DNA of 64,000 nucleotides, taken from assembly GCA_036873755.1 (NCBI GenBank), contig JAVTVY010017193.1:1-64000 (forward strand), read 5' to 3'. Under the pieces are notes generated by a model, which was not told where the DNA came from, did no database searches, and was given only the letters and a program-made list of their open reading frames with translations. Positions 2 through 54,403 of the stretch are shown here, piece by piece; position 1 is the first letter of the stretch; each line of letters opens with the position of its first letter. The translations under genes and the position numbers were made by a program. The stretch is from Hanleya hanleyi (Eukaryota > Mollusca > Polyplacophora > Lepidopleurida > Hanleyidae).

Positions 2-187
2 CTGCACCTGGCGAGACAGATGTATCCCGGCCGCACACCGTTTGCATTGGAAGCCTTTAAAGATGCCACAACCCCTCAGCACGGGTATATGCTCTTCGAC
101 CTGAAGCAAACCACCCCCGACCACCTTCGACTACGGACCGGCATCTTTCCCGGAGACTCACCACGTGTACATGCAAAAATAATGTAA
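2..187 (+). CDS. Packaging ATPase (FtsK/HerA, A32-like), 3' end only, element 1
   Basis: This is the C-terminal ~60 residues of the Maverick genome-packaging ATPase; the Walker motifs lie outside the window. It is almost identical to the last third of the intact copy ending at 54339. A 2-nt deletion near position 154 relative to that copy shifts the last ~10 codons and moves the stop to 185-187, so the extreme C terminus is altered. It is followed at once by the family's 3' hairpin and AATAAA signal. The family role (ATP-driven DNA packaging into capsids) is known; the effect of the altered tail is unknown. Confidence 0.8.
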   Translation: MHLARQMYPGRTPFALEAFKDATTPQHGYMLFDLKQTTPDHLRLRTGIFPGDSPRVHAKIM

Positions 188-247
188 ACACACCTACAGT
201 GGCTCCCCCAGCTGGGGTGTGTGTGTTTTGATGATGGGGATAATAAA
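186..247 (+). terminator. Conserved 3'-end hairpin plus AATAAA (copy A)
   Basis: Arms ACACACC and GGTGTGT and an inner CAG/CTG pair enclose the loop TGGCTCCCCCAG. The element ends in AATAAA at 242-247. The same architecture occurs at 32121, 35697, 46182(-), 48609(-) and 54343. Confidence 0.75.
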
Positions 248-335
248 AAAGAATGAATACCACAACAGGGTTGATTTTTGTCTCTGAAGTAGATAAAAAG
301 AGCAGAATTGTGGGTTCTAGCATTAGTTGTACAGG

Positions 336-677
336 ATGTCTGCGCGAGTACGGAAGCACGCTCCCACGCTCCGTGTATTGAAGACGGCCCCACCCGAGTT
401 AGTCCGAACCATTGTACGCGGTGCGGACCCTGCTCTCGTGTGCTGTCTGTGTGAGATTGGACTCAATATCTTAAAAGGCAACGTACCACTGACTCCGGCT
501 CAGAAGACCAAGTTGGCCAAGCATAAGACAGGTCTAAGAACCTTAGTCCAGAAGCGAGTGTCTCAAACACAAAAGAAAAAGGTGTTACAGAAAGGTGGAT
601 TTCTCGGGGCCATCTTAGCACCGTTGGCCGCTTCCGTGTTGGGTCCAGTATTGGGTGGACTCTTCGGCCGACAATGA
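336..677 (+). CDS. PX-like small basic virion protein, element 1
   Basis: This is an intact ORF of about 113 residues. I start it at ATG 336; an upstream in-frame TTG at 327 is not needed. The N-terminal half is basic and contains a CLCEIG segment. A lysine-rich stretch (KKKVLQKGG) follows, then a hydrophobic Gly/Ala/Leu tail ending in GLFGRQ. Similar short proteins with a lysine run and a hydrophobic glycine-rich tail are common in Polintons and adintoviruses next to capsid genes. Biochemical function is not established; a membrane- or DNA-associated virion protein is inference. Its TGA overlaps the next ATG by 4 nt. The paralogue in element 2 (54487-54831) is also intact. Confidence 0.6.
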   Translation: MSARVRKHAPTLRVLKTAPPELVRTIVRGADPALVCCLCEIGLNILKGNVPLTPAQKTKLAKHKTGLRTLVQKRVSQTQKKKVLQKGGFLGAILAPLAASVLGPVLGGLFGRQ

Positions 678-1426
678 ACCACACGAAAAAAATGGTGCTC
701 GTCGAACCTCGGCTCCTTCAAAACCTCCAATCGCCCTACACTGTCCCTTCTACGGTGAAGACGATAAACACCCTCGATGGAGAGATGCAACAGATCTTAC
801 AGAGACCGGGGTTAAGCGATAGTGAGAAAGTACAACGGTACAATGAGACGCTTCAGCGGTACATGACGTTCATGGACCAATACAAAACCCTCTCTGCTCC
901 ACCACCACCTCCACCATCACCACGTGACAGACCGCCGACCTCAGCACCGTTCCAACAGCCGGGTGGAGTACCTTCCACAGCCCCACAGTGGGTCGAAGAC
1001 GAAGTCCTGAAGAGTGTACCTGCCTCGTTCAAGAAACAAGCTGGCCTGATATTACAACGGATGAAACAGAATCCTAACATGACTTGGAATGATAAAGGCG
1101 AACTCCTGGTACAGAATCGGGTGGTCCCCGGGACCCACATGACGGATTTAGTGAATGACCTGATGCGTCAACGCAGGACGCACACGAATCCTCGAGGATG
1201 GGAGGTCTTCGCTCAAGGCTTGAAAGACATGCATGTACCACAGAAATTGGTGGGCAACCCTCAGCGCTGGGCCTTTATGCAGAATGTGAGTACACCACCA
1301 GAACCTTGGGAACCGGAGTCACCTCCCACATCACCACCACGGCGGGCGCCTACGTTTTCACCCCTTTTACCACGCCACCCCTGCAACCACCAAGAGCTAA
1401 ATCACCGCGACCATCACGACGATTAG
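674..1426 (+). CDS. PY-like conserved Maverick protein, C terminus probably frameshifted
   Basis: The 250-residue ORF overlaps the PX-like stop by 4 nt (ATGA). An N-terminal helical region (residues ~1-75) is followed by a proline-rich linker (~76-110) and then a conserved domain with WNDKGELLVQN, PGTHMTDLVNDLMR and GWEVFAQGLKDMHVP. After about residue 205 the frame departs from element 2. The probable original C terminus, basic and ending in WEKY, lies in another frame and stops at 1452, just before the next TATA box. The copy in element 2 (54828) is also disturbed after the conserved domain. It is a recurrent capsid-module protein of unknown function. Confidence 0.55.
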   Translation: MNHTKKMVLVEPRLLQNLQSPYTVPSTVKTINTLDGEMQQILQRPGLSDSEKVQRYNETLQRYMTFMDQYKTLSAPPPPPPSPRDRPPTSAPFQQPGGVPSTAPQWVEDEVLKSVPASFKKQAGLILQRMKQNPNMTWNDKGELLVQNRVVPGTHMTDLVNDLMRQRRTHTNPRGWEVFAQGLKDMHVPQKLVGNPQRWAFMQNVSTPPEPWEPESPPTSPPRRAPTFSPLLPRHPCNHQELNHRDHHDD

Positions 1427-1446
1427 CGCCCAAGGGCTGGGAGAAG

Positions 1447-1454
1447 TATTAAAA
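1447..1454 (+). promoter_or_regulatory. TATA-like box for the penton/pVI/MCP/protease block, element 1
   Basis: TATTAAAA lies 39 nt upstream of the penton ATG, followed by a CAGCAGCAG tract and TCAGTC, which resembles an initiator. The arrangement is identical at 55674 in element 2. Confidence 0.5.
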
Positions 1455-1485
1455 CCAACAGCAGCAGCAGGACAGCTCAGTCATC

Positions 1486-2263
1486 ATGTTTACCTCACCC
1501 TACCCAGTAACAGCTCGGCTGATGTGTTTCCTGACAACACCTTGACCAAGTACGTGACCCAGTTACCGCAACCGTTGCATTTACCTGGACGCTGGGAATG
1601 TGGACTCGTGGATATCCAATACCCTTACTCGTGGTACAACGTGCGAGCCAATGAAGTATGGTACGAGGTGACCTACGAAGGACAAGAAACTCGACTCAAA
1701 ATACCTGAAGGTCAATACGATACCCCCAAGGAGTTCATGGGTGGACTGAGAAGTCTGATGCATTATAAGTCTCTACGAGACGTCACGAATACTTCAAAAC
1801 CCATCAAATCTTTTCCCTTCAAAAATCATGTGGACTTCGATTACAACGCACACAACGACAAGGCCAATCTCACGCTCAGCCCCAACGTGAGTGTCGAACT
1901 CAGTGCTACCCTACAGCAAATGCTGGGTTTCAATTACCAGGGGTACGCTGCCCCACCGGCGAGATAGGCCACATCCCGATGGACATGCGTGGTGGTCTGT
2001 ACGTCTACTCGGACGTGGTCGATGCACACATTGTCGGCGACAGCAACGTACCTCTACTGCGCGTCTGCCCGGTGAAAGGCACGTATGGAGCTCAAGTCAC
2101 CCACAGTTTCAGGCATATCGTGTATCTACCGGTCAGTCAGACCGATATTAGCTTCATCGTCATCGATATAAGAGACGACACGGGACGACCGGTGGCATTC
2201 GAACGAGGAAAAGTGGTGCTGACACTTCATTTCCGTCAAGTCCGAGCGGTTCACTTTGCATAA
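1486..2263 (+). pseudogene. Penton (single jelly-roll minor capsid protein), frameshifted, element 1
   Basis: The reading frame resembles Polinton penton proteins: an N-terminal LPSN segment, FPDNT, LPQPLHLPGRWECGLVDIQYP and YSWYNV. This protein occupies capsid vertices. The start ATG is at 1486, but a T run just after it has one T fewer than element 2 (TTT against TTTT), which throws the start out of frame. A second disruption near 1955-1980 splits the body into two frames. The second half (to 2263) is otherwise close to element 2. Its TAA overlaps the next ATG by one base. Confidence 0.8.
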
Positions 2264-2670
2264 TGAAGGTGCCTTATCAATGCCATACAGCCAGTTACGT
2301 CGATCATTACACCAGACAGGCCGGGGGTAACTTTCCTGTCTTTGCGGGTACACACATGCAACGAGGACATGGACTGGGGAACATACTCGGGAGCATCGTC
2401 AAAACGTTCCTGCCCTTGGTGACGCGTGGGGTCAAAGCGATCGGCAAACAAGCGGTGCGCAGTGGACTGCAAGTGGCCGGTGCTGTCTTGGGGGGTACGG
2501 CACCCAAAAAATCCTTGAAACGGCGGGCCAAAGAAGCGGGAGGCGTCTTGGTGGCCAAAGCACAACGCACCGTAGGGAATAAAAGAGCTGCCCCACCGAG
2601 ACCACGCACAAGTCGACGACCGACCCAGCGACGACGCACATCGAAGAAGACCAAGGATATCTTTTCTTAA
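2263..2670 (+). CDS. pVI/pX-like amphipathic basic capsid protein, element 1
   Basis: The 135-residue ORF is intact. A short N-terminal segment (KVPY) is followed by a Gly-rich amphipathic region (residues ~33-72, GHGLGNILGSIVKTFLPLV) and a long Arg/Lys/Pro-rich C-terminal half ending in DIFS. This matches the small Polinton/adintovirus protein compared with adenovirus pVI or pX: an internal capsid or DNA-condensing protein, with the helix a possible membrane-active segment (inference). ATG 2263 overlaps the penton stop (TAATG), and the stop is 2 nt before the MCP ATG. Element 2 carries a 1-nt frameshift in this gene, so this is the better copy. Confidence 0.65.
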   Translation: MKVPYQCHTASYVDHYTRQAGGNFPVFAGTHMQRGHGLGNILGSIVKTFLPLVTRGVKAIGKQAVRSGLQVAGAVLGGTAPKKSLKRRAKEAGGVLVAKAQRTVGNKRAAPPRPRTSRRPTQRRRTSKKTKDIFS

Positions 2671-2672
2671 AG

Positions 2673-3977
2673 ATGGCTTTCATCCATGCCGAGTCGTGTC
2701 CTTCTACCAACAGTGAATTTGATTTATGGACCGTCCCACCTACTCAGACCAGTGCCGAAGAGGGTCAATGGGTAGAACATTTGCCCCTTTCCAGCATTAC
2801 AGCCACAGGCCCCATTGAATTCACCATCACCAACGCAGATACGACCTACCTGGATATAGGTACGTATGGGCTAAAATCTAAAAGCTAAAATCACCAATAA
2901 AGATGGGACAGTCCTGAAAGCAGAGGCACCCGTGGGTCCAGTGAATCTCTGGCTTCATTCGCTATTCCAGCAAGTGGATATAGCCCTGAGTGATAAACTG
3001 GTGAGCGCCTCGACGAACACGTACCCGTACCGAGCCTACATCGAAACACTGTTATCCTACGGGCGTGACGCCAAAATGTCGTATTTGACAGCCCCGTTGT
3101 TCTACCGAGATACCCCAGGCAAGATGGAAGCGAGTCCTCATAATGACGGCTATACGGAGAGAGTGGATGCCACAGCAGAGTCACTCGGTCGATATGATGG
3201 GACGTCTGCATGCGGACTTATTCATGCAGGACCGATACCTCTTGAATGGAGTACCTGTCAAAATACGACTAGTGCGCGCAACGCCTGCGTTTGCCTTGAT
3301 GGCCCCGAATGAAGACCTCGAGTATAACATTGTCATCCAAGAGGCAAGTCTGTTTGTACGCAAAGTGAAACCCAGCCCAGGTGTACAGTTGGGGCACATC
3401 AGAGCCTTGGAGAAAAAAACCAGCCCAGTACCCGATTCGACGAGTACAGACCAAGGTCTTTTCCGTTCCTAAAGGCAATATGATTGTCAATCAAGAAAAC
3501 CTGTTCCTGGGAGATTTGCCCAAGCGTTTAACCCTAGCCTGTGTGGAGAACGTCAGTTATAATGGGACTCTCTCGAGGAATCCGTTCAACCTAAAAGTGT
3601 TCAACATCAATTTCGTGGCCCTGCATGTGGATGGCCAACAGGTACCGGCACGGCCTTTACAACCTAATTTCGGAACGGACAATTACATCCGGAGCTATCT
3701 GAACCTCTTCACAGCAACTGGCCAAATCAACCAAGACGAGGGAAATATGATCAGTCGAGACTATTTCGGCAGAGGGTACACATTGTTCTGTTTCGATCTG
3801 ACTCCCACCTTAGACAACGATCATCAACTGAGTCTCATCAAGAAAGGCAACTTACGCTTGGAACTGCACTTCGGGACACCTTTACCGAAAACCATCAATG
3901 TGATCTGCAACGCTGAGTTTGACAACATCATTCAAATCGATAAAAGCCGTAACGTGCTGTGTGACTTCGCCACCTAA
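2673..3977 (+). pseudogene. Major capsid protein (double jelly-roll hexon), multiple frameshifts, element 1
   Basis: The pieces lie in three frames: 2673-2888, then ~2889-3190, ~3180-3420 and ~3415-3977. The second piece holds the Polinton MCP signature (VGPVNLWLHSLF, NTYPYRAYIETLLSYG). The rest includes GRLHADLFMQDRYLLN and FVALHVDGQQVP. These are hallmarks of Maverick double jelly-roll capsids. Frameshifts fall near 2875-2890, 3185 and 3415. Despite them this copy keeps the ~110-residue segment deleted from element 2. It is 1 nt from the protease ATG. Confidence 0.85.
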
Positions 3978-3978
3978 C

Positions 3979-4451
3979 ATGGATACAGACCAGATAACCA
4001 CGGTGCTGGAGACTGACCCAGGAACACGTAGGGTCTTTCAAGGTGTTCGCCCGAGACGTGTTCCCATTAGACCGTGTGTATCCGGCTGCTTACGTCCTGA
4101 ATACAGACCCGATGGATCGGCCCGGTGAACACTGGGTGGCCGTGTACTTGACAGAAGAGCAGGGTGAATACTTTGACCCGTACGGCCTACCACCCCTCCA
4201 TCCCGATTTAACAGACTTCATGGATCAAGGCACAGAGACCGTGGTGTTGGAATACTAAAACGTTGCAAAGCCTGGACAGTATGGTGTGCGGACAATATTG
4301 CTTGTTTTACCTGTACCATCGATGCCGAGGAAGACCCTTATCTACCATCGTCCACATGTTTGACGAGTACCCCAAGGCCGAGGACCGAGATGTACTCGTC
4401 TATGACTGGGCCGCCCATCATTTCAATGTACAAGCTCCATTCTGGGCTTAA
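3979..4451 (+). pseudogene. Adenain-like cysteine protease, two frameshifts, element 1
   Basis: This is a homologue of the intact 57887-58360 protease that processes capsid precursors. Catalytic-type motifs are still visible: GEHW (His), YFDPYG (Asp) and VCGQYC (Cys). A 2-nt loss near 4040 and another indel near 4250 put the three motif blocks in different frames, so no active enzyme can be made. The 3' end encodes FNVQAPFWA and is followed by degenerate repeats of that same end. Confidence 0.8.
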
Positions 4452-4530
4452 GTTATTTCAATGAACACACGCCCCCTGTTCTGGGCTTGAATTCTAGCAA
4501 GCCCCTTGTTCTGGGCTTCAGTTTTCACGT
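4420..4530 (+). repeat. Tandem copies of the protease 3' end, element 1
   Basis: About three diverged repeats of a 30-50-nt unit contain TGTTCTGGGCTT and overlap the stop codon. The same arrangement is present in element 2 at 58335-58465. Confidence 0.6.
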
Positions 4531-4558
4531 GGTTGTTCTCACGTTGTTGTTGTTCACT

Positions 4559-4613
4559 GAATAAAAAAAAAAATGAGATCTCACCAAAAAACCCTGTCTT
4601 GTGTGTTTTATTC
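4559..4613. terminator. Convergent poly(A) signals after the capsid block, element 1
   Basis: AATAAA lies on + at about 4560. TTTTATT (AATAAA on -) lies about 45 nt later. The pair can end the capsid transcript and an opposing transcript, and it is conserved at 58503-58552. Confidence 0.5.
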
Positions 4614-5357
4614 ATAATGCATCTGGAGATTCAGTCAAACTGAAATCAGTGGTGTAGGATGGGGCCAAAATATCACCCACCAAGGTTAGAATGCAAGCGC
4701 ACTATAGTAAAAATAGAGAGCCAATGAATGTATTCTCCGAACCTTGCCGAAAGGGAGACCGTTTGACAGGTGACCTTTTGACCCGCGCGTGCGCACTGCC
4801 GGGGATGACGCGCGCACTGCCGGGGATGACGCGCACTTCCGGAGAACCCCCGCGCGCGCGCGCGCTGCGTGCTGGGGCGGGCCAGGCCGGTGAAAAAGTG
4901 CCGGAGGTTGAACATCCGGACGTCTAAGGACGTCTCTTTCAGTGCTCGGGATGTGACCCATCAATACCCAGCAACCCAACAGAGGTGTTAAGACCATGAT
5001 ATAACCTGCTCGGCGCATGGTTAGTACGAATGATTCGGTGGTGGAGGTGGTGGTGTTCAATAAAAAAAACTGCATGAAAACCCAAGCGAAGTTCGAATAT
5101 TTATTAAGGTGAACAAGTGACCAAGAATGTATGTACAAGTATAGAAGAACGTTGCAAACAAGAATTAAGGTGAACGTATGTATAGAGAGAGAAATCACAG
5201 TGGAGTATATAACAGTTCAACCGAGTCCTCGCACTGACGTATATCGTGTACTTATTCAATAGAATGACAAACAAGTTCATGGTGTAATGTATATATAGAG
5301 AGTTATTTAGAGTCCAAATATGTATGTCCATTAGAAAAGTCCGGGTATAAGATATGT
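4614..5357. other. Intergenic: CpG-rich tract between protease and PolB
   Basis: 4640-4740 matches element 2 (58580-58680). 4780-4905 is CpG-rich with two copies of GCGCACTGCCGGGGATGAC and a GCGC run, and matches 58985-59110. 5050-5357 is AT-rich 3'-flank of PolB with no recognisable gene and no copy of the C-rich hairpin. Confidence 0.5.
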
Positions 5358-9339: not shown

Positions 9340-9599
9340 CCTGATCGTATATACCCCTGTAAAATAGAGCCGATTTTGACAATGAATCGGTCACGACTTC
9401 TTATTTCTTTGGAGGGGCAAGGTCAATAGGACTTGCGCTTTTTATACTACTAAAATGTGAAGTCGATTACATCTTACATCTAGCTTTAAGGCCGTGATAT
9501 GCATATGAAGTATTCTGGGGCATGGTCAGTACTTCCCAGTTTTCCCTTTGTCTACTACTCGCCGATTTTTTAATTTTTTTTATTATTATTATTTATTTA

Positions 9600-10832: not shown

Positions 10833-10974
10833 TTACTGAGTGATACTGGTCAGCTGCATGTCATCAATGAGGCGAACACGGTACTTTCGAAGCTTCACTA
10901 AAAATGATGACTCCATGACTTTGGACTCAGGCTGGTGAGTAACTGCTACGGTGTAATAGGCTGGTGAATTTGCA
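10833..10974 (-). CDS. Possible terminal coding exon of a host gene
   Basis: On the minus strand a T-rich tract ends in CAG at 10977-10975. It is followed by an open frame of 47 codons (SPAYYTVAVTHQP...) to TAA at 10833. The polypyrimidine tract and acceptor are plausible, and the Tyr/Val alternation is mildly fibronectin III-like. No family is recognised. It may be a chance ORF. Confidence 0.2.
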
Positions 10975-11029
10975 CTGGTAAAATGAAAAAAAGTAAAAGG
11001 TTCTCCACAGCTCATACAAGCAGGCAAGC

Positions 11030-11100: not shown

Positions 11101-11179
11101 AGTCAGAGTGCTCCGCAGGGTAGTGCAATGAATACACCCCACCCCTAAAAATCGCCTGCTTTTATACGTTTTTCTACAA

Positions 11180-30450: not shown

Positions 30451-30960
30451 AAACTACTTAACCCTCTTATCAACATTGCAAGCACGTAAAAGGTGCGCTG
30501 ACCCCTCAGCCCGATTTTTTTTGATCATGTAGGATATGGTTTGCGTGATATACATGTATGTACCATACATATAATAGACTCAAGCTGCATAATGGGAGAG
30601 CTGCAGTGGGATTACAGCATGCAAAAAAATGTAGCTTGATCAGTGACAAGAAAGATCATGCATGAGCAACTATGAAAACAGGTTATTTGGATAGAAAAAC
30701 ATTGATTGACATATGCCCACAATTATCACTATTATTTGGGAGGGGAGTAATCGCCTAAAATAGTAACAAAAAGAATTTTGAAGATTGTATTTTTTTTTGA
30801 CAACGTGAAATTATAAATGTGAAAGCTGTGAAATGCATCTAATCTTTCAAATATTGGTTAGTTGCGGACAGTATTGCATGAAAACAGCCGGAATTTCTGG
30901 TAGAACTCAAATCTCTCATTGCTCATTCACTACAGTGCTGCTTGCTCTCCTTTGCTCGAC
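30451..30960. other. Upstream flank of the zinc-finger gene
   Basis: AT-rich with no gene recognised. From about 30950 it matches the promoters at 47345-47375 and 49770-49800. Confidence 0.4.
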
Positions 30961-30972
30961 CAGCTAGCGTGC

Positions 30973-30980
30973 TATAAAAG
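30973..30980 (+). promoter_or_regulatory. TATA box of zinc-finger/PolB-N gene, copy 1
   Basis: TATAAAAG lies 46 nt before the ATG. It is followed by the palindrome CGGCCTGGCCG and TCATCAGACA. The same block is present in both copies of element 2. Confidence 0.7.
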
Positions 30981-31025
30981 GGAAGCGGCCTGGCCGTTTC
31001 ATCAGACATTCTGTCAACCACCAAG

Positions 31026-31949
31026 ATGTTCACTTGCACAACTTGCCAGAAGCAGTTTACTCGTCTAGAACATTTACGACGTCACGAGGCCTCCACCCAC
31101 AACGATGCACGGTATACTTGTATAATCTGCGCACGGTCATTCAATCGGGAGGATAATTTACTGCGCCATGCGAGGGCATTCCACGAGGGTGCGACGGTAC
31201 AATGTAACGATTGTGGTCGACCCTTCAAACGACCCAGTCGGTTAAGACAGCACCAACGTTTGATTCATGCCCCGTCTCTACGCTTTGGGCGACAACTTTC
31301 CACTAAAGAGGAGCCGCGGAAGGTCAGACCCCGTGAAGATGAACCCGGGGAGACGAACGCCACTGGTGATGCGATGACGAAGAGCCCGCCTATACCCACA
31401 GTCCAGGAGGGCCTGGATATCCAGCCGGACCCCAGCGTTACGGTTTCGAGTCATACGCCTGACGACATCCAACATTTTCTGAACGAGCCCATAAATGTTC
31501 CTAGCGATCTCTTACAGGACGCCCATCCAGTGAGTGACATCTATCGGCGCCATTGGCCCATGATACGGCACTGTTTCCACCGTCATCGCCCTATTCAAGG
31601 TATCTGCAATTTCCGACTGACCGATCTCGCCTGTCTACGCTGCTACATGGAAGCCGTATTCAATGACCAAGCTACGTCCTTCAAATTAAATCTGGCGTTT
31701 GGTTATGTGCTGCAGCATAAGGAGACAGGCCAAGTCCGATACTTTTACCCGAGCAGTTACATCCAGGTATTTGACCAACCGTTTACCATCATTAACCAGG
31801 CCTCGCTAGAGACGATGCTGGAGAAACTGGACACCGTGGATGCCCTGGAATGGGCCCAACAACAACGTCCCAATACCGAGTGGATAGTGCAGTGGGTCAC
31901 CAATGTCACGTTTTCCGTGACCAAGATGACCGACCACCCCATCTGTTGA
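31026..31949 (+). CDS. Stand-alone C2H2 zinc-finger protein with PolB N-terminal domain, copy 1
   Basis: The 307-residue ORF is intact, with CACCAAG before the ATG. Three C2H2 fingers span residues ~2-81 (first finger C4, C7, H20, H25). A charged linker (~82-150) follows. Residues ~165-305 are homologous to the first ~170 residues of element 1 PolB (PVSDIYRRHW, HRHRPIQ, RYFYPS, QRPNT.W..VTNVTF). It stops where PolB would continue into its CLFRCLA region. The two copies in element 2 end within a few codons of the same place. With its own TATA box and 3' hairpin it is a real transcription unit, not a broken PolB. A DNA-binding regulator or replication competitor is inference. Confidence 0.75.
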   Translation: MFTCTTCQKQFTRLEHLRRHEASTHNDARYTCIICARSFNREDNLLRHARAFHEGATVQCNDCGRPFKRPSRLRQHQRLIHAPSLRFGRQLSTKEEPRKVRPREDEPGETNATGDAMTKSPPIPTVQEGLDIQPDPSVTVSSHTPDDIQHFLNEPINVPSDLLQDAHPVSDIYRRHWPMIRHCFHRHRPIQGICNFRLTDLACLRCYMEAVFNDQATSFKLNLAFGYVLQHKETGQVRYFYPSSYIQVFDQPFTIINQASLETMLEKLDTVDALEWAQQQRPNTEWIVQWVTNVTFSVTKMTDHPIC

Positions 31950-32120
31950 ACGCGTCACACGTGCACTGATTAATACCATAACATGCCGTACATACTCTAT
32001 ATGTCTACATAATGATCGTTGACTTGAGCTCAGTAAACACTTGTACCTAATGTGACGGTGCGTTAAATAATAAAACATGGTGTTTGATATTTCAATTTGT
32101 TTTGCTGTGGACATACTAAA

Positions 32121-32175
32121 CATACCTAGGGCGGCTCCCCCAGCCTAGGTATGATGTAACATTGGGGATAATAAA
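32121..32175 (+). terminator. Conserved 3'-end hairpin plus AATAAA (copy C)
   Basis: Perfect 10-bp arms CATACCTAGG/CCTAGGTATG enclose GCGGCTCCCCCAG. GGGGATAATAAA follows, with AATAAA at 32170-32175. It lies about 170 nt after the zinc-finger stop codon. Confidence 0.8.
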
Positions 32176-32221
32176 CTGTATGAACATTGCTGAACTTGTT
32201 GTTATTCATGACAACCGCTAT

Positions 32222-35271: not shown

Positions 35272-35691
35272 ATGTCGTGTTTAATATGCAAGAGCTCGTG
35301 GATGGAAAAATTGAGCGCTCGGAGCTCGGAGATGGGGCAGTTGGGTGCTTGGATCTCGGAACTCGTGGATGAGGCTATTGGGAGCTCGAAGCCCGGGAGG
35401 AGCGCGGCCGTCCGGAGCTCGCGGATGGGGCAGTTGGAAGCTCGAAGCTCGGGGATCGGGCAGTTAGAAGCTCGTGTCGCTTGGAATGAAGGGCGACCCC
35501 ATACACAGCTCCGTCAAGAAAACCAAGTGTCAACTGGAGGGGGATACCACCAACCGAGCCCTGGAAAAAAACGATCCAAATGCGAAAACAACTGTTTCAG
35601 GGCATATTGCCTCAACGGTATCCTGGACGACCATGACCGAAGATTGACCTTTCTCAAAGACCGGCTTCTGATTGGACAATTGCATGATTGA
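35272..35691 (+). CDS. Unknown 139-residue ORF with MGQLEARSS repeats and family 3' hairpin
   Basis: Residues ~10-75 are built from a ~27-nt tandem repeat encoding variants of SSxMGQLEAR. The C-terminal part (KKRSKCENNC...LDDHDRRLTFLKDRLLIGQLHD) is not repetitive. The stop is 6 nt before the family hairpin at 35697, so this was probably the 3' end of a Maverick-family gene. I do not recognise the protein. The track may have chosen an internal start, and the repeat part may be low-complexity expansion. Confidence 0.4.
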   Translation: MSCLICKSSWMEKLSARSSEMGQLGAWISELVDEAIGSSKPGRSAAVRSSRMGQLEARSSGIGQLEARVAWNEGRPHTQLRQENQVSTGGGYHQPSPGKKRSKCENNCFRAYCLNGILDDHDRRLTFLKDRLLIGQLHD

Positions 35692-35696
35692 ATTGT

Positions 35697-35753
35697 AAAC
35701 ACACACATAGCGATCCCCCAGCGTGGATGTGCTGTGCTGGATGGGATAATAAA
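35697..35753 (+). terminator. Conserved 3'-end hairpin plus AATAAA (copy D)
   Basis: The arms are diverged (ACACACATAG against TGGATGTGCTGTG), but the loop keeps GATCCCCCAGC. GGGATAATAAA ends at 35753. Confidence 0.65.
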
Positions 35754-46159: not shown

Positions 46160-46214
46160 TTTATTATCCCCAATGTTACATCATACCCAGGCTGGGAGAG
46201 CCGCCCTGGGTATG
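46160..46214 (-). terminator. Conserved 3'-end hairpin plus AATAAA (copy E)
   Basis: Read on minus: CATACCCAGG, loop GCGGCTCTCCCAG, CCTGGGTATG (46214-46182), then AATAAA at 46165-46160. Compensatory changes relative to copy C keep the stem paired. Confidence 0.8.
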
Positions 46215-46365
46215 TTTAGTATGTTCACAGCAAAACAAATTGAAATATCAAACACCATGTTTTATTATTTAACGCACCGTCACATTAGGTACAAGTGTTT
46301 ACTGAGCTCAAGTCAATGATCAGCATGTAGACATAGAGAGTATGTACGACATGTTATGGTATTCA

Positions 46366-47307
46366 TCAGTGCACGAGTGACGCATTCAACCGATGGCAGT
46401 GGTGGATCAGCTTGGTAAGGAAAAACGTAACATTGGTCACCCTCTTCACTGTCCACTTGGTGTTGGGTCGTTGTTGTTGGGCCCATCCCAAGACATCCAA
46501 TTGTTCCACTTGGTCCAGCATCATCTCTAGTGACCTCCGGTCAATGATGGTAAACGGTTGGTCGTACACTGGGTGGATGGCACTGGAATAGAAATAGCGC
46601 AATTCACCCGTCATCTTATGGCATAAGATGTACCCAAATGCTACATTTAATGTGAAGGCCGTAGGTTGGTCATTGAAGATGGTTTCCACGTAGCTGCGTA
46701 GACGGGTGAGCTTGGTCAGTGGGAAATTGTAGATATCTTGAATAGGGCGATGACGGTGGAAACAGTGCCGTGTCATGGTCCAATGGCGCCGAGAGATGTC
46801 ACTCTCTGGATGATATTCGGGTAAGAGATCGCTAGGAACATTTATGGGCTCGTCCAGAAAATGTTCGATGTATGGCGTATGACTCGAAACCGTAACGGTG
46901 GGGTCCGGTTGGAAATCCAGGCTCTTCCCAACTGTGGATATAGGCGGGCTCTCCGTCATCGCATCACCAGTGGCGTTCGTCTCCGCGGGCTTATCTTCGC
47001 TGGGTCTGACCTTCCGCGGCTTCTCTTCAGTAGGAAGTTGTCGCCAAAACCGTGGAGACGGGACATGAATCAAACGCTGATGCCGTCTTAACTGACTGCG
47101 TCGTTTGAAGAGTTGACCACAATCCTTACATTTTTCCGTCGCGCCCTCGTGGAATGAGCGTTCGTGGCGCAGTAAATCATCCTCCCGATTAAATGACCGT
47201 GCGCAGGTTATACAAGTATACCGTGCATCGTTGTGGGTGGAGGCCTCGTGGCGTCGTAAATTATCTAGACGAGTAAACTGCTTCTGGCAAGTTGTGCAAG
47301 TGAACAT
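46366..47307 (-). CDS. Zinc-finger/PolB-N-terminal protein, copy 2
   Basis: The 313-residue ORF is intact. Three C2H2 fingers are complete (first finger CTTCQKQF). An acidic/basic linker is followed by the PolB N-terminal homology (PESDISRRHW, HRHRPIQDIYNF, QRPNTKW). It ends in HCHRLNASLVH, slightly beyond the stop of copy 1. It faces outward from element 2. It has the same promoter block (TATA at 47360-47353) and hairpin as the others. Confidence 0.75.
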   Translation of the reverse strand: MFTCTTCQKQFTRLDNLRRHEASTHNDARYTCITCARSFNREDDLLRHERSFHEGATEKCKDCGQLFKRRSQLRRHQRLIHVPSPRFWRQLPTEEKPRKVRPSEDKPAETNATGDAMTESPPISTVGKSLDFQPDPTVTVSSHTPYIEHFLDEPINVPSDLLPEYHPESDISRRHWTMTRHCFHRHRPIQDIYNFPLTKLTRLRSYVETIFNDQPTAFTLNVAFGYILCHKMTGELRYFYSSAIHPVYDQPFTIIDRRSLEMMLDQVEQLDVLGWAQQQRPNTKWTVKRVTNVTFFLTKLIHHCHRLNASLVH

Positions 47308-47352
47308 CTTGGTGGTTGACAGAGTGTCTGATGAAACGGCAAGGCCGCTTCC

Positions 47353-47360
47353 CTTTTATA
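47353..47360 (-). promoter_or_regulatory. TATA box of zinc-finger gene, copy 2
   Basis: TATAAAAG on minus, 46 nt before the ATG at 47307, followed by the GC-rich palindrome-like GGCCTTGCCG. Confidence 0.65.
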
Positions 47361-48586
47361 GCACGCTAGCTGGTGATCTATTTTTAGCACACTCTACCCC
47401 AAGTCGAGGGCCGAGCCGTGACATCTTCGGTCACCTCCGTGATACCCGAATAGACACGAAGTCAGTCAGATTTTTCTTATATTTTATCTAAATGTTTTCT
47501 TCGCAAAACACTAGCTGATAAATTAGTAAATAATAATCTGATAGGAAATAAAATATTTTTAACCACATTTCAATGCCGAAAACCAAGAATTTTGAAGAAA
47601 TATGACGAAAATGTCACTTTTATTGGTACCCCACATGACCGTCATTTGGAATTTACCCATGATCCTCTGATCGAGGGGTCGTGCAAATAGGCTCAAAATG
47701 ACCTCAATATGATAAGCTAAAAATCAGGGAATGTCAGCTCTCAATTTTCTGTCGTTCCGTAGATAGGAGCAAAAAACCAACAGGGGAAGTGCTCATTTCC
47801 ATATCTGAAAAAATAATTGCTGGTTTCCTCGAATAATGAACTGCAAACTGCGGTCTAACTTTATGAACGTGAAATGCCCCTAGGCCAAGTAAGGTTAAGC
47901 ATGGTCCGAATAGTCTGAATGGTCAGTCCCAAGTAGTATATAAAGTTGATTTCAGAGCAAATTTCACCCGGATGTAGTGACGTCATGAGGAGGGTTTGAG
48001 GAGGAACTAGTGGCGCCATCTGTACACTTTGGACGCAAGGGAGACAACTCGATCTGCCAGAGTTTGGCCGCCATCTTGAATTTTTGAGGCGGCGTGGGCG
48101 GCCATCTTGAATTGTGTGGAAAAGGGGATGCGGTCGCGGGAAAAAGCTTCCGCGGAGAAAAAGTAGTCCCTAGACTGGAAATACGCTGCATTGTCCGATG
48201 GGGTCGAGTGAGGTATCAAAGTGAAGCCTATGTGAGGGGGCATCTGATGGGCTGGGTGTGGGGTTGACATATCGGCATTATGCGCATGCGCGGTGGCCCA
48301 AGGGTATGAAAATAGACGTTTTGGGATCGAGCGGGGTTTCTAATGGGCCGATGGAGTTGTATGAGGTATCCATGTGAAGCCTAGGTGAAGGGGCATCCAG
48401 TCATGGGTGGGTGCATGTAAAATGTTTCCTGAAAAAAAACGGAACACGGACTTTATCGAAAAACAGGGGAAAACCCCTATCACCTCTAGCCAAAAAGACT
48501 AATATTGGTCCCCGGGCTTATTGGGACTTGCCTATCAAGTCATTGGGGTGATGTGAATAACAACAAGTTCAGCAATGTTCATACAG

Positions 48587-48641
48587 TTTATTATCCCCAA
48601 TGTTACATCATACCCAGGCTGGGAGAGCCGCCCTGGGTATG
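48587..48641 (-). terminator. Conserved 3'-end hairpin plus AATAAA (copy F)
   Basis: Identical to copy E; hairpin 48641-48609, AATAAA 48592-48587. Confidence 0.8.
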
Positions 48642-48792
48642 TTTAGTATGTTCACAGCAAAACAAATTGAAATATCAAACACCATGTTTTATTATTTAAC
48701 GCACCGTCACATTAGGTACAAGTGTTTACTGAGCTCAAGTCAATGATCAGCATGTAGACATAGAGAGTATGTACGACATGTTATGGTATTCA

Positions 48793-49734
48793 TCAGTGCA
48801 CGAGTGACGCATTCAACCGATGGCAGTGGTGGATCACCTTGGTAAGGAAAAACGTAACATTGGTCACCCTCTTCACTGTCCACTTGGTGTTGGGTCGTTG
48901 TTGTTGGGCCCATCCCAAGACATCCAATTGTTCCACTTGGTCCAGCATCATCTCTAGTGACCTCCGGTCAATGATGGTAAACGGTTGGTCGTACACTGGG
49001 TGGATGGCACTGGAATAGAAATAGCGCAATTCACCCGTCATCTTATGGCATAAGATGTACCCAAATGCTACATTTAATGTGAAGGCCATAGGTTGGTCAT
49101 TGAAGATGGTTTCCACGTAGCTGCGTAGACGGGTGGGCTTGGTCAGTGGGAAATTGTAGATATCTTGAATAGGGCGATGACGGTGGAAACAGTGCCGTGT
49201 CATGGTCCAATGGCGCCGAGAGATGTCACTCTCTGGATGATATTCGGGTAAGAGATCGCTAGGAACATTTATGGGCTCGTCCAGAAAATGTTCGATGTAT
49301 GGCGTATGACTCGAAACCGTAACGGTGGGGTCCGGTTGGAAATCCAGGCTCTTCCCAACTGTGGATATAGGCGGGCTCTCCGTCATCGCATCACCAGTGG
49401 CGTTCGTCTCCGCGGGCTTATCTTCGCTGGGTCTGACCTTCCGCGGCTTCTCTTCAGTAGGAAGTTGTCGCCAAAACCGTGGAGACGGGACATGAATCAA
49501 ACGCTGATGCCGTCTTAACTGACTGCGTCGTTTGAAGAGTTGACCACAATCCTTACATTTTTCCGTCGCGCCCTCGTGGAATGAGCGTTCGTGGCGCAGT
49601 AAATCATCCTCCCGATTAAATGACCGTGCGCAGGTTATACAAGTATACCGTGCATCGTTGTGGGTGGAGGTCTCGTGGCGTCGTAAATTATCTAGACGAG
49701 TAAACTGCTTCTGGTAAGTTGTGCAAGTGAACAT
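48793..49734 (-). CDS. Zinc-finger/PolB-N-terminal protein, copy 3 (first finger damaged)
   Basis: The 313-residue ORF is nearly identical to 46366-47307, with about six substitutions. The second zinc-ligand Cys of finger 1 (residue 7) is Tyr, so that finger should not fold. Fingers 2 and 3 and the PolB-like part are intact apart from Leu-Pro, Thr-Met and Leu-Val changes. It is divergent from the PC4-like cluster across a ~390-bp spacer that carries TATA boxes in both directions. Confidence 0.75.
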   Translation of the reverse strand: MFTCTTYQKQFTRLDNLRRHETSTHNDARYTCITCARSFNREDDLLRHERSFHEGATEKCKDCGQLFKRRSQLRRHQRLIHVPSPRFWRQLPTEEKPRKVRPSEDKPAETNATGDAMTESPPISTVGKSLDFQPDPTVTVSSHTPYIEHFLDEPINVPSDLLPEYHPESDISRRHWTMTRHCFHRHRPIQDIYNFPLTKPTRLRSYVETIFNDQPMAFTLNVAFGYILCHKMTGELRYFYSSAIHPVYDQPFTIIDRRSLEMMLDQVEQLDVLGWAQQQRPNTKWTVKRVTNVTFFLTKVIHHCHRLNASLVH

Positions 49735-49779
49735 CTTGGTGGTTGACAGAGTGTCTGATGAAACGGCAAGGCCGCTTCC

Positions 49780-49787
49780 CTTTTATA
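49780..49787 (-). promoter_or_regulatory. TATA box of zinc-finger gene, copy 3
   Basis: Same block as at 47353. Together with 50061-50093 it forms a divergent promoter region. Confidence 0.65.
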
Positions 49788-50060
49788 GCACGCTAGCTGG
49801 TGATCTATTTTTAGCACACTCTACCCCAAGTCGAGGGCCGAGCCGTGACATCTTCGGTCACCTCCGTGATACCCGAATAGACACGAAGGTGAACGACATT
49901 GTGGAAAAACCCCACAGACAGGTTAGTACATGCATTCCTATGATGTTCACAGGTTACGCCCATTCACGAAGGGCCGTCACAGGGCGTAGTAGAAAAAAGC
50001 GCATTTCTAACCTTATTGACCTTATGGCGCAAGCGAGTATAGCAAGTGCCACGCACGGTG

Positions 50061-50093
50061 TATAAAACCCTACCCAACAGGTACACTATAAAA
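50061..50093 (+). promoter_or_regulatory. Two TATA boxes before the first PC4-like gene
   Basis: TATAAAA at 50061-50067 and again at 50087-50093. The second lies 36 nt before the ancestral start position at 50129. Confidence 0.6.
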
Positions 50094-50128
50094 CCACCTC
50101 TCTCACCGTTCGCTTTTCATTCCCCACC

Positions 50129-50815
50129 ATAGCAGCGAGCGGAACAGAGCTTGCGTTATTCCAACTGACGTCCGACGTCACCCTGATCGTCTATGACGAT
50201 CACCTGGAGCTGGTCCAAGACGCACCGCAGAAGGTGAAGATTTTGTTATCGCTATCAGGCTGGACTCTATTGACACGATTGTTAAAGGGAAAAGACCCCG
50301 AAAGGGATTTCATACACGTGGAAGTCGGTGTGCACATACGCACTGCTGGAGAGGATTACCTTTTTCCCCGGTTGGAACAGAGTGGAGGTACCTATATCAC
50401 ACTCTCTCCACCCTTATGGATGGCACTGAAAGATTTTCTTCCCGAGGTGGATGACTTACTACACCCCGAGGTGAAAGAAGGGACTGTGGCTACCCGGAGG
50501 CTTACACCTGGCTGCACCCTATTGTTGTACCCCAAACGAGTGGACCTCATCGATAGCGGACTTAGGTGTTGGTGTACGACTGAACCCAAATCGCACGTCT
50601 CTTTGTCACCCGAAGGATGGTCTACCTTGAAACGTGTGTTGTTGGGTGACCAGCACGGTGATAGCATTCACCTGTGTGACGACGTCTACATTTTCTGCGG
50701 TCCCTTTTCCGCTCGACTCCTCTGTCTGAACGACGGTGGTTTTACCCTGGACCCCGATCTATGGACGGCTTTGGAACAAGTAGTCCCCATTGTCGATAAG
50801 GTACTATCTCTATAG
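50129..50815 (+). pseudogene. PC4-like tandem-domain protein, start codon lost
   Basis: The frame is open from before 50129 to TAG at 50813-50815 (about 228 codons), but the expected start reads ATA in the context CCACCATAG. The first ATG-free part is in frame, and only a GTG at 50234 would serve. The protein has repeating halves. Each has beta-rich segments followed by a helix resembling the C-terminal part of PC4/Sub1 (YITLSPPLWMALKDFLPEVD, VSLSPEGWSTLKRVL, FTLDPDLWTALEQVVPIVD). PC4 binds single-stranded DNA as a dimer. A fused repeat could mimic the dimer (inference). It shares this fold pattern with 51350 and 51664. Confidence 0.5.
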
Positions 50816-50897
50816 GAGCCACATAACCCATCAGAATAGTACGTATCACGGACTACACCCGTAGAGCTACATCTAGGCGCGCATGTGTGACCTGGTC

Positions 50898-50903
50898 TAT
50901 AAA
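50898..50903 (+). promoter_or_regulatory. TATA box of tail-anchored protein gene
   Basis: TATAAA 53 nt before ATG 50951. Confidence 0.55.
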
Positions 50904-50950
50904 CCACGTCTCTCTGGATCACACACCTTCATTTCTACGGTTGCAGAGCC

Positions 50951-51277
50951 ATGGCGGAGATCCAGCCCTATGCGACACGCATTTTACAGCATGCCACCGT
51001 GGTTAATTCACTCACGGGTTACGGAGCAGTGGTCCGGTCCATGTTTGCAGATGGCGACGACAACGAGGGGCGACGCCAGATCCTCAACGAGTTCACAGAA
51101 GCGGTCCTCGACAGAGTGCACTCGATGGAGACGTGTGCCATCACTCACCACTACTGCACTATGACAGCCATCCTTGATGCTCGGGCTATGGACCACGAGC
51201 GCTCACGCCGGAACCAGCGACGGCTGGTTGGCCTCACAATAGTCTGTGCCCTATTGACCCTGGCGCTGTGGTATTGA
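50951..51277 (+). CDS. Small predicted tail-anchored membrane protein
   Basis: The 108-residue ORF has a good start context (AGAGCCATGG). Residues 1-90 are soluble and helical with several Cys and His (CAITHHYC). A basic patch (RSRRNQRRL) precedes one hydrophobic segment, residues ~91-107 (VGLTIVCALLTLALW), right at the C terminus. This is tail-anchor topology with the N terminus in the cytosol. No family is recognised. It has its own TATA box between two PC4-like genes, so it probably belongs to the early/accessory module of element 2. Confidence 0.55.
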   Translation: MAEIQPYATRILQHATVVNSLTGYGAVVRSMFADGDDNEGRRQILNEFTEAVLDRVHSMETCAITHHYCTMTAILDARAMDHERSRRNQRRLVGLTIVCALLTLALWY

Positions 51278-51291
51278 CAGTGGGACCTGAC

Positions 51292-51299
51292 TATAAATA
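51292..51299 (+). promoter_or_regulatory. TATA box of second PC4-like gene
   Basis: TATAAATA 58 nt before ATG 51350. Confidence 0.55.
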
Positions 51300-51349
51300 C
51301 GAGGGTCAGACAGAGTGTGTGTCATTCACCGTTCGACATTGGAGCAAGC

Positions 51350-51667
51350 ATGTCACCCGTCCTACGAGCCATCCTTCCTCTTACACCCCGGGTGGGGTTA
51401 CACGTCTATGAAGATAAAGTCACCCTCGTGGAAGACCGTGGAGATGTTTGCTGGTCGCCAGCTGAGACCGTATCGAATACGGTTACGCTACACCGTGACG
51501 GCTGGACCAAATTTAAACGGGTGTTGAGCGGCGAGCTCGATGGACACCTCATCCACATAGACAATGCCATCTACGTATACCGTGGACCCTTCTTCCCGCG
51601 CCTGGGCCGCTACCAAGACCCTACGCGAAGCTTCACCCTAGACCCCTACTGGCGTATCTCAGCTTGA
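51350..51667 (+). CDS. PC4-like protein, C terminus truncated
   Basis: I start this at ATG 51350; an upstream GTG at 51317 is in frame but less likely. It has about 105 residues. LTPRVGLHVYEDKV opens the first repeat, VTLHRDGWTKFKRVLSGELDG is the helix of the first half, and IHIDNAIYVYRGPF begins the second half. The final helix expected after FTLDP is missing: the frame runs into YWRISA and a stop. The break lies exactly where the next gene's start-like sequence begins, so a deletion between tandem paralogues is likely. Confidence 0.5.
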   Translation: MSPVLRAILPLTPRVGLHVYEDKVTLVEDRGDVCWSPAETVSNTVTLHRDGWTKFKRVLSGELDGHLIHIDNAIYVYRGPFFPRLGRYQDPTRSFTLDPYWRISA

Positions 51668-52101
51668 CCCCCGAGGTTTTCCTGCACGCGTATGCGGATA
51701 AGGTCGATATCATGGAGGAGGTAGGAGACATCTGTGATGCGGACCCTACACAATCGTGCCCGGCTCACATTCGTCTGTCCCGGGAGGGCTGGACCAAATT
51801 CAAACGGGTGTTGTCTGGTGAACTGGACGGCGACCTCATCCACTTGTGTCACGATGTGTACATCCGACGTTGCCCTTTCTTTGCTCAATTGGCTCGGCTA
51901 GATGGAGGTACAGTGCATTTTACCATTCACCCTGATCTATGGTCTGCATTGGAAGATGCCGTGGTAGATGTGGATCAAGTGCTTATCAAGCGATCATCAG
52001 ACGAGTTGGACTGGTCATTTACCATGGACACTGTGGAAGCCAACGAAGAAAATCAGAAAGAAACTCAGGCCCAAGATATACCCGTTATAAATAAACGATA
52101 G
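51664..52101 (+). pseudogene. PC4-like paralogue fused behind the truncated copy, no ATG
   Basis: The frame is open through 51664 to TAG 52099-52101 but has no ATG near the expected start. It begins with LTPEVFLHAYADKV, parallel to the start of 51350. It has a complete pair of PC4-like halves (IRLSREGWTKFKRVLSGELDG; FTIHPDLWSALEDAVVDVDQVL) and an acidic C-terminal tail. The helix of the first half is almost identical to that of 51350, so the two are recent duplicates. It can be translated only by an alternative start or by readthrough or frameshift from 51350. Confidence 0.5.
52086..52093 (+). promoter_or_regulatory. TATA box of integrase gene
   Basis: TATAAATA inside the end of the previous ORF, 43 nt before ATG 52129. 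Confidence 0.55.
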
Positions 52102-52128
52102 AGCCAGGGTCCATCATCATTTGTCACC

Positions 52129-53195
52129 ATGAAGCGCTGGGAGAAGGTGTTGGATAACTTATACTACAGTCCCGACAGTCCGGCGGCCTATAGTGCATTG
52201 CCGGCTCTCTATCGAGCGGCCAAACCCCAGGGGATACAACGTGCCCAAGTCCGAGATTGGTTAAGAAAACAAGACACCTATACCTTACATCGATCTGTCT
52301 GTCGCCATTTTCTACGGAACCGGGTCATCGTGGGAGGAATAGATGCCCAGTGGCAAGCGGATTTGGTCGATATGAGCGCCTTTGCCATACACAACGATGG
52401 GAATCGGTATATCTTGACGTGCATCGATATACTATCCAAGTATGCGTGGGTGGTACCCATCCGGACGAATACGGGGGCGAATCTCATAGCGGCGTTCAAA
52501 GACATCTTCAAGACCGGGCGCAAACCTTTCTATTTGCAAACCGACGAAGGCACGGAATTCCTCAACAGACCGTTCCAACAGTTTCTGAAAGCCCAGAAGG
52601 TGATTTCTTCCATACGTACAACGAGACCAAGGCTTCCGTGGTGGAAAGGTTCAACAGGATATTCAAAGGCCGCATGTATAAATATTTCACCTATAAGAAT
52701 ACAAGGCGGTACATCGATGTTCTCCCGAAACTGGTGAGGGGTTACAATCGAGCCTATCATCGGAGTATAGTGAGAGCGCCCATTACCGTGACCCAACGCA
52801 ATGAAGCCCAAGTCCGGCGTGTCTTGTACCCCAGGCCATCGCAGCGAACGCCGAAGGCGGTGTACAAGGTCGGGGACCCTGTACGGATCAGTAAAGTCAA
52901 AGGTCAATTTGAGAAAAGTTACTTGCCCAACTGAAGCGATGAGCACTTCCTGATTAAACGGCGCCTACCCCAACAGGTCTATGAACTGGAAGATCTTCAA
53001 GGGGAACCGTTGCTAGGGACGTTTTACGGGATGGAATTACAGCCTGTCGTAAAAACACAGCAAGACTACTACACGGTGGAGCAGATTTTGAAAACGGAAC
53101 GTCGACGTGCCAAACTGTTTCATTTCGTCAAATGGCAAGGCTGGCCCAGTTCCTTCAATTCCTGGGTCGCTGCCAACCAGGTGAAACGATTATAA
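52129..53195 (+). pseudogene. Retroviral-like (DDE) integrase with C-terminal chromodomain, frameshift and stop
   Basis: This is the Maverick integrase, which inserts the element into host DNA. The N-terminal helical region is followed by the catalytic core: first Asp in QWQADLVDM, second Asp in LQTDEGTEF, Glu in ASVVERFNR. A KVGDPVRISK segment follows, then a chromodomain-like end (YYTVEQIL...FHFVKWQGWP..FNSWV). A 1-nt loss in a T run near 52605 shifts frame just before the catalytic Glu. A TGA at 52932-52934 stands where a Trp codon is expected. The rest of the frame is open to 53195, so inactivation is recent. Confidence 0.9.
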
Positions 53196-53196
53196 A
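53191..53196 (+). promoter_or_regulatory. TATA box of the mucin-like membrane protein gene
   Basis: TATAAA overlaps the integrase stop, 55 nt before ATG 53246. Confidence 0.55.
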
Positions 53197-53245
53197 GCCA
53201 GACACCACTACCATCATCCTTCATTCCACGTCCGACCACAGCGCT

Positions 53246-53836
53246 ATGGACCAACAGCAGCTGCCTCTGAACACAGCGTCTCCCAAAACGCGCAAAGCGC
53301 AAGTGGGCTTTGTGGTGATAGTGCTAACCCTGCTGAGTGTGTTGTACGGAGGTGTGTTTTACGACGTAGCCTATGTCAGCACGTTACTTAACCAATTGAG
53401 AACACCAGCCACCAGTGAAACCGGTCTACAGAGAGCACCAGTCAACCCCGTATCGAGCCCAGTCACCACCACCACACCCCGTGTACAAGCCACAACGAGC
53501 TCCACACCAAGCTCAACATCTACACCAAGTACACCCACTACGTCTGAAAACCCACCGGATTTCATCCCTCACAGTGAACAGACAACGACGACCGACGTTG
53601 TACCCACCCCCATCATAATCACTCGCAGTGTACAGACAACGACGACCGACGTTGTACCCACCACCACTCCAGTTCACTCGTACCAAATTTACAAGAGCGG
53701 GTTACCACGACAACGGATACACCTCGAACCATGGACCCTCGGTGGCAGCATCCCTTCACGTGTCTCATCGCAGGACCGACGGGCTCCGGCAAAACGCACT
53801 TCGTCCGGAAGCTCCTTCAACACGCCGACAGCATGA
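53246..53836 (+). CDS. Type II membrane protein with mucin-like Thr/Ser/Pro-rich ectodomain
   Basis: The 196-residue ORF starts at ATG 53246. A short cytosolic N terminus with basic residues (KTRKAQ) is followed by one transmembrane segment (residues ~20-41, VGFVVIVLTLLSVLYGGVFY). A long Thr/Ser/Pro-rich stalk follows with a duplicated QTTTTDVVPT unit, as expected for an O-glycosylated ectodomain. The last ~35 codons overlap the ATPase ORF in another frame. No family is recognised. A virion-surface or host-interaction protein is inference from topology. Confidence 0.55.
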   Translation: MDQQQLPLNTASPKTRKAQVGFVVIVLTLLSVLYGGVFYDVAYVSTLLNQLRTPATSETGLQRAPVNPVSSPVTTTTPRVQATTSSTPSSTSTPSTPTTSENPPDFIPHSEQTTTTDVVPTPIIITRSVQTTTTDVVPTTTPVHSYQIYKSGLPRQRIHLEPWTLGGSIPSRVSSQDRRAPAKRTSSGSSFNTPTA

Positions 53837-54339
53837 TCACCCCACCCATTGCCCGAGTCGTGTGGTGTTATGGAGAATGGCAGGCAGCGTATGCAGCAAT
53901 GCCCCACATCACGTTCGTGGAAGGCCTACCCAACCTGGCCGATTTGGAACCCGACACCTTGGTGGTTCTGGATGATCTCATGGCGGAGACGGATGCGCGG
54001 GTCACCCAACTCTTTACCAAAGGCAGCCACCATCGACGGCTCAGCATCATCTACATTGTGCAGAATCTGTTCAATAAAAACAAAGAACATCGGAACATCA
54101 GCTTAAATGCCCACTACCTGGTGGTCTTCAAAAACCCGAGAGATACCACTCAACTGCTGCACCTGGCGAGACAGATATATCCCGGCCGCACACCGTTTGC
54201 GTTGGAAGCCTTTAAAGATGCCACAACCCCTCAGCACGGGTATATGCTCTTCGACCTCAAGCAAGCCACCCCCGACCACCTTCGACTACGGACCGGCATC
54301 TTTCCCGGAGAGACCCACCACGTGTACTTGCAAAAATAA
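53731..54339 (+). CDS. DNA-packaging ATPase (FtsK/HerA, A32-like), intact
   Basis: The ORF is complete at 202 residues. Walker A is GPTGSGKT (residues 15-22) and Walker B is LVVLDDL (77-83). A YIVQNLF segment follows near residue 106. This is the size and motif layout of Polinton/adintovirus packaging ATPases, which drive genome DNA into preformed capsids. The start overlaps the end of the membrane-protein ORF. The gene is followed by hairpin B. It is the best-preserved morphogenesis gene in the window. Confidence 0.9.
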   Translation: MDPRWQHPFTCLIAGPTGSGKTHFVRKLLQHADSMITPPIARVVWCYGEWQAAYAAMPHITFVEGLPNLADLEPDTLVVLDDLMAETDARVTQLFTKGSHHRRLSIIYIVQNLFNKNKEHRNISLNAHYLVVFKNPRDTTQLLHLARQIYPGRTPFALEAFKDATTPQHGYMLFDLKQATPDHLRLRTGIFPGETHHVYLQK

Positions 54340-54342
54340 TGT

Positions 54343-54403
54343 AAACACACCCACAGTGGCGCCCCCAGCTGGAGTGTGTGTGTTTGATGATGGAGATAAT
54401 AAA
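54343..54403 (+). terminator. Conserved 3'-end hairpin plus AATAAA (copy B)
   Basis: Arms ACACACC and GAGTGTGT (one mismatch), inner CAG/CTG, loop TGGCGCCCCCAG. AATAAA at 54398-54403. It directly follows the ATPase stop. Confidence 0.75.

Follow-up and report, generated by a model that had tools for sequence, protein, structure and literature searches.

Certain Maverick genes of Hanleya hanleyi end in a C-rich-loop hairpin that looks like a shared element of message ends

To our knowledge, little has been established about how animal Mavericks make their messages. Two such elements lie in a stretch of 64,000 nucleotides (nt) of DNA from the polyplacophoran mollusc Hanleya hanleyi, referred to here as the window (GenBank assembly GCA_036873755.1, contig JAVTVY010017193.1, positions 1 to 64,000; the contig is 67.5 kilobases (kb) long, in a genome of 2.48 Gb). 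An original prediction, made from the letters alone, had pointed to six copies of a hairpin with a C-rich loop behind genes of this family. Does the hairpin serve the ends of Maverick messages, or has it merely travelled with the genes that it follows? The results below suggest an RNA element that these genes share and that serves to make or protect message ends, a proposal that is only partly proven. On balance we lean towards a poly(A)-site module of certain Maverick genes, which is inherited and exchanged together with their 3′ ends and whose hairpin probably aids 3′-end formation or stability. A conserved, portable 3′-end module on some genes of an expanding family offers a handle on Maverick message making, as well as on the swapping of gene ends between Maverick elements. 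Should it be true that the hairpin binds a protein, we would know of no earlier RNA regulatory element in Mavericks.

All six predicted copies are real, and their positions and strands were given correctly. Their parts follow the same order in 6/6 copies, namely: TAAACA; a hairpin segment of 37 nt (36 in copy E) with a C-rich loop; a spacer of 10-14 nt; GGG(G)ATAATAAA (GGAG in copy B); and a G/T-rich tail. We refer to TAAACA, the hairpin, GGGATAATAAA and the GU-rich tail as the module. The ATAATAAA downstream of the stem, predicted for five of the six, is found in every copy. The stem end lies 10-14 nt upstream of GGG(G) in five copies, or of GGAG in B, and 16-20 nt upstream of AATAAA, which is present in all six window copies; the GU/U-rich tail was read by eye. 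The loop had been called nearly fixed. It is C-rich throughout but varies more than that, i.e. GGCTCCCCCAG twice, GGCGCCCCCAG once, GGCTCTCCCAG twice and CGATCCCCCAG once. UGUA adjoins the stem in copies A to E, on its left side in A, B and E and on its right side in C and D.

The six copies are three families rather than six independent cases. The first consists of A and B, which mark one locus, the ATPase 3′ end, of two related elements. The hairpin segment of A (185..221, plus strand) starts 2 nt past the ATPase stop codon of the left element, with GGGGATAATAAA, including the poly(A) signal, at 236..247; that of B (54342..54378, plus strand) starts 2 nt past the stop codon of the right element, with GGAGATAATAAA and its poly(A) signal at 54392..54403. 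The second family is the 3′ end of one zinc-finger gene family. Its copy C (32117..32153, plus strand; GGGGATAATAAA with poly(A) signal at 32164..32175) lies about 170 nt past the stop codon and has a stem of 10 base pairs (bp), all paired; D (46182..46218, minus strand; GGGGATAATAAA with poly(A) signal at 46160..46171) follows a zinc-finger gene and has a compensatory change relative to C; and D′ (48609..48645, minus strand; GGGGATAATAAA with poly(A) signal at 48587..48598) has the same hairpin as D through a 2427-bp tandem duplication. The third family is the weakly folding E (35696..35731, plus strand; GGGATAATAAA with poly(A) signal at 35743..35753), at the 3′ end of a decayed second zinc-finger gene.

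The block common to all copies, from TAAACA through the hairpin and GGGATAATAAA to the GU-rich tail, is about 75 nt long. Eight local alignments between families score 22-31, where 300 random pairs each, under a dinucleotide model, reach at most 20; the likeness of the block across the three families is well beyond chance. The 3′ untranslated regions (UTRs) around the module do not align between families, and the parts of the module stay in order. Shared descent accounts for the likeness of the block; selection is needed only for its staying alike while the surrounding UTRs did not.

How far the module reaches was examined with a covariance model, as the original prediction had proposed, here built from the five distinct copies. 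In the window the model finds these six only, at 49.8 to 59.6 bits; its four other hits there score at most 18.8 bits (E 0.018 to 0.84) and fall on the opposite strands of A, B, D and D′. Six copies in 64 kb should not be taken for a fair rate, because they are why the window was chosen. The remaining 3.5 kb of the contig contains copies F (60.9 bits) and G (35.5 bits), both after zinc-finger genes. Copy H (44.6 bits), on another contig (L134) and again after a zinc-finger gene, is the sole clear match in 15 sampled 10-kb stretches, which were hand-picked on long contigs with an ATPase match and are not random; a weak match in the same stretches (L135) reaches 11.2 bits (E 1.6). The expected rarity of the motif away from Maverick-related genes was thus borne out in this sample, with one of 15 stretches matching. 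Taken with the ATPase ends described below, these matches tie the module to ATPase and zinc-finger genes; it is not a repeat that occurs widely. Copy G joins the coding region of a type-1 zinc-finger gene to the 3′ end of a type-2 gene, module included, and gene ends are therefore exchanged as units. All nine copies (the six plus F, G and H) have the same orientation as the gene before them, and 8/9 have AATAAA about 16-20 nt after the stem, which makes a poly(A)-site module the best supported step of our reading.

The ATPase family could be followed further in the same genome. We scored the best 150 of 32,143 first-look candidates, taken most similar first and 98-100% identical, and read the 3′ ends of 70 of them (30 with loci and the 40 lowest-ranked). 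The hairpin segment is present in 70/70 of these ends, which take 38 different forms when compared as far as the poly(A) signal. Among the 30 copies with loci the left arm is near invariant, with 1/15 sites variable.

Whether the fold itself matters is best judged from the two arms of the stem. The compensatory change between C and D is present: ten differences occur in 242 aligned 3′-UTR positions, and two of them fall in one base pair, for which the chance that two of ten differences share one of ten pairs is about 0.015 by a hand estimate. To call this clear covariation, as had been done, overstates what the window alone holds. Among 500 shuffles of the five distinct window sequences, 10 reach the covariation score, 29 the number of paired cells and 76 the number of double-change pairs. 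Covariation is present but modest. When the arms are shuffled, C and D fold better than 1000/1000 shuffles. The inner stems differ between families yet pair, and at column pair 7-35 four of the nine sequences have C-G and the other five T-A. Arms were also exchanged among six distinct forms: the native pairs total −82.0 kcal/mol against a mean of −62.9, and 2/720 permutations, native included, are as stable, with A2, a perfectly pairing ATPase form that we picked, standing in for A and B. Arm swaps in the set A, B, A2, C, D, F, G and H (E left out) give 80/40320, those among A2, C, G and H 2/24, and three five-form subsets 2/120 each. On our reading, the arms co-evolved between families, with laxity in the ATPase family, and selection probably acts on the RNA fold itself.

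Several results, besides that choice of A2, weigh against this reading. The arm-shuffle p values of the other window forms are 0.053 (A), 0.048 (B) and 0.252 (E); 6/120 arm-swap permutations of the five window forms are as stable as the native set; and with nine sequences 13/500 shuffles reach the covariation score. Sliding the register by +1 raises that score to 0.278 from 0.211, but with 38% of cells paired instead of 80%. Simulated independent change starting from C gives p values of 0.13 to 0.47 for retained pairing. Folding of whole ends is weak (z −0.38 for A, −2.31 for B, −1.30 for C, −1.96 for D and −1.38 for E), and these energies fail to separate the module ends from the protease ends. 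In the 30 ATPase copies the right arm has a mean diversity of 0.064 versus 0.024 at third codon positions and 0.044 in the rest of the spacer (block limits off by about two bases, copies ranked by protein identity), which is not what strict selection on the stem predicts. The poly(A) signal is absent from H and altered in at least one ATPase copy (L079). Finally, the 68%-identical, frame-broken ATPase of a sibling Maverick in the same genome (L123), whose stop codon is overlapped by AATAAA, has no module before the next open reading frame (ORF), and two tubeworm elements, which sat in a bacterial bin and were taken as host contamination, have none after their ATPase.

Much of this evidence would also suit an account to which we give a smaller, still appreciable, chance: plain shared descent. 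Here an ancestral poly(A) site was spread by recombination and its linear signals matter, i.e. TAAACA/UGUA, CCCCCAG, AATAAA and the GU-rich tail, while the hairpin is incidental, or is kept in C and D by mutation at near-palindromes, for which template switching is a source. That all copies are homologous over the block, that G recombines a coding region with a 3′ end, that conservation in the 30 ATPase copies is far higher in the left half than in the right one, that E and B fold poorly and that the simulations readily retain pairing all agree with it. It is opposed by the preference for native arm pairs (2/720 and 80/40320) and by the different inner stems of the families, in which pairing is retained.

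A stronger claim, which we consider unlikely, is that the hairpin is a family-wide RNA address for a dedicated protein, perhaps the Maverick zinc-finger proteins themselves, so that the ATPase and zinc-finger genes would form one self-controlled post-transcriptional regulon. Somewhat less probable again is an element acting at the DNA level (a transposon end, or a recombination or replication site) that stands after genes by chance. The unit that carries C is sharply bounded, from just before a TATA box to just after the module, and D has the 6-bp direct repeat ATCACC at both limits (by eye), as such an element might; no such exact repeat is seen by eye at the flanks of C, and, because F has the same flanks as D beyond these limits, the limits of D are not insertion points. 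The gene-sense orientation of 9/9 copies and the AATAAA of 8/9 speak against it as well. Least probable of all is a hairpin poly(A) signal like that of giant viruses and virophages, cut inside the stem: according to two papers (PMC4402537, PMC6723459), stem-loops mark message ends in Mimiviridae and Sputnik too, with 16 Sputnik genes ending in one, but there the hairpin lacks sequence conservation and takes the place of the eukaryotic signal, whereas here the sequence is conserved, AATAAA is kept in 6/6 window copies and the module is not at every gene of the element, PolB and protease ends being without it, so that membership of this class is not supported.

The likeness to the histone stem-loop that had been proposed holds in outline only, in that a conserved loop and a pairing stem stand at the message end. 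Histone mRNA has these features, is not polyadenylated and has a downstream U7 site. The module differs in its poly(A) signal, its longer stem, with a bulge in some families, and its C-rich loop. The AATAAA of all six window copies argues against an unpolyadenylated message of the histone type, no search for a U7 site having been made, and Rfam families, scanned over the full window with E up to 5, give four hits, none at the six copies; membership of the histone 3′ stem-loop family is not supported. An iron-responsive element, suggested by CAGTG in A, was ruled out, as C, D and E lack CAGTG by eye. The nearest system is the metazoan poly(A) site, at which cleavage occurs 10-35 nt after AATAAA and structured upstream elements can occur. 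The module has the AATAAA and the GU- or U-rich tail of such a site, a nearby UGUA and a hairpin upstream; it differs in that one hairpin with a C-rich loop recurs at several different genes of one element family. Among titles and abstract starts in a partial open library, the literature on Mavericks, Polintons and adintoviruses mentions no such element under hairpins, polyadenylation or UTRs.

For the poly(A)-site module that we favour, we infer from these sequences a role of the hairpin in processing or stability. In the nascent RNA, the hairpin would fold just upstream of AAUAAA and bring the flanking UGUA and AAUAAA together, and the C-rich loop might be presented to a poly(C)-binding or cleavage-factor protein of the host; UGUA and poly(C)-binding proteins have roles in 3′-end formation. 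Cleavage could then be efficient in a short intergenic space, and the message end would be protected. After the ATPase stop codon, the first ATG of the next ORF is about 150 nt away.

The proposal that the hairpin is shared by the element's transcripts in general did not hold: only ATPase and zinc-finger ends carry the module. One PolB end and two protease ends in the window are of other kinds, without the module by the covariance-model search. Going by this handful of cases, the module belongs to one branch and to some genes. No relatives were found in viral contigs with the ATPase, an ATPase alignment or PolB, nor in phage records with the ATPase. The pattern TCCCCCAG..GATAATAAA occurs in 45 stretches, none of which has both TAAACA and the stem in place. 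TAAACAYAC..TCCCCCAGC occurs in three, one of which (L050) folds well but shows no ATAATAAA within 60 nt, and looks like a chance match. The tubeworm ATPase genes have a short hairpin of their own at the stop codon (L046 909-928, L047 4624-4648), with the compensating change AGACGT/ACGTCT versus AGACGA/TCGTCT; it lacks a C-rich loop and may be due to chance (by eye).

The left Maverick extends to about 9.4 kb and the right one from about 50 to 58.5 kb. The hallmark genes of Mavericks (Polintons), namely the integrase, packaging ATPase, adenovirus-type protease and PolB, are present across the two and not all in one: the integrase in the right, PolB in the left, and the ATPase and protease in both. 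The integrase matches its Pfam family at 1.2e-10, while the protease (5e-4) and Pox_A32 on the ATPase (1e-4) fall just under the curated cut-offs. Zeta_toxin exceeds Pox_A32 on the ATPase (4e-5, over its cut-off), which we take as a shared P-loop; many among the 120 listed ATPase relatives carry Pox_A32 or Adeno_IVa2. The gene that we take to be PolB has no Pfam match, and its relatives lie on a tubeworm contig next to an ATPase and an integrase. Capsid-type genes, likewise without a Pfam match, were presumed from Maverick gene order. The 3′ part of the left ATPase gene (2..182, plus strand) precedes A, and the packaging-ATPase gene of the right element (53731..54339, plus strand) precedes B. 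Among the 30 ATPase copies (L053-L082) the following ORF is far more diverse, with 157/249 sites variable, though the ATPases are almost identical; this suggests exchange between elements or alignment trouble. Two of the best 150 copies have an inner stop codon (TAG) and the others none. The Maverick expansion in this genome is probably large and young.

In the zinc-finger genes upstream of C (31026..31949, plus strand), D (46366..47307, minus strand) and D′ (48793..49734, minus strand), the zinc-finger part is joined to truncated sequence from the N-terminal region of PolB, and the frame is open in each copy; a database search with the zinc-finger protein gave one match among 240 candidates, at 44% identity over 51%. 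These gene contexts had been named correctly for both ATPase and all three zinc-finger copies. The unknown ORF placed before E is not the gene concerned, and none of 27 candidates is homologous to it. Comparison with L134 instead identifies there a decayed copy, broken across frames, of the C-terminal part of the second zinc-finger gene (35471..35633, plus strand). With 22.9 bits the finger part of L134 falls slightly short of its curated cut-off (25.2 bits), and a stop interrupts the L134 frame. An ATPase remnant was considered for E from weak matches only, which the L134 zinc-finger gene then explained.

In the zinc-finger 3′ UTRs the ATAATAAA of the module is preceded by another one, about 100 nt further upstream (32067-32074, 46261-46268 and 48688-48695), with TAAACAC ahead of it and no such hairpin. 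The zinc-finger unit of C (30959-32208) matches that of D between sharp limits, one immediately ahead of the TATA box and the other immediately behind the module. Within it, 31000-31119 and 31960-32199 are 90-100% identical per 60 nt, and coding windows go down to 57%. In the protease genes of both Mavericks (4380-4570 and 58340-58520), the last codons are repeated in tandem at the gene end. These repeats can form AAGCCC..GGGCTT hairpins upstream of AATAAA, and the whole ends fold slightly better than shuffles (z −1.73 and −1.29).

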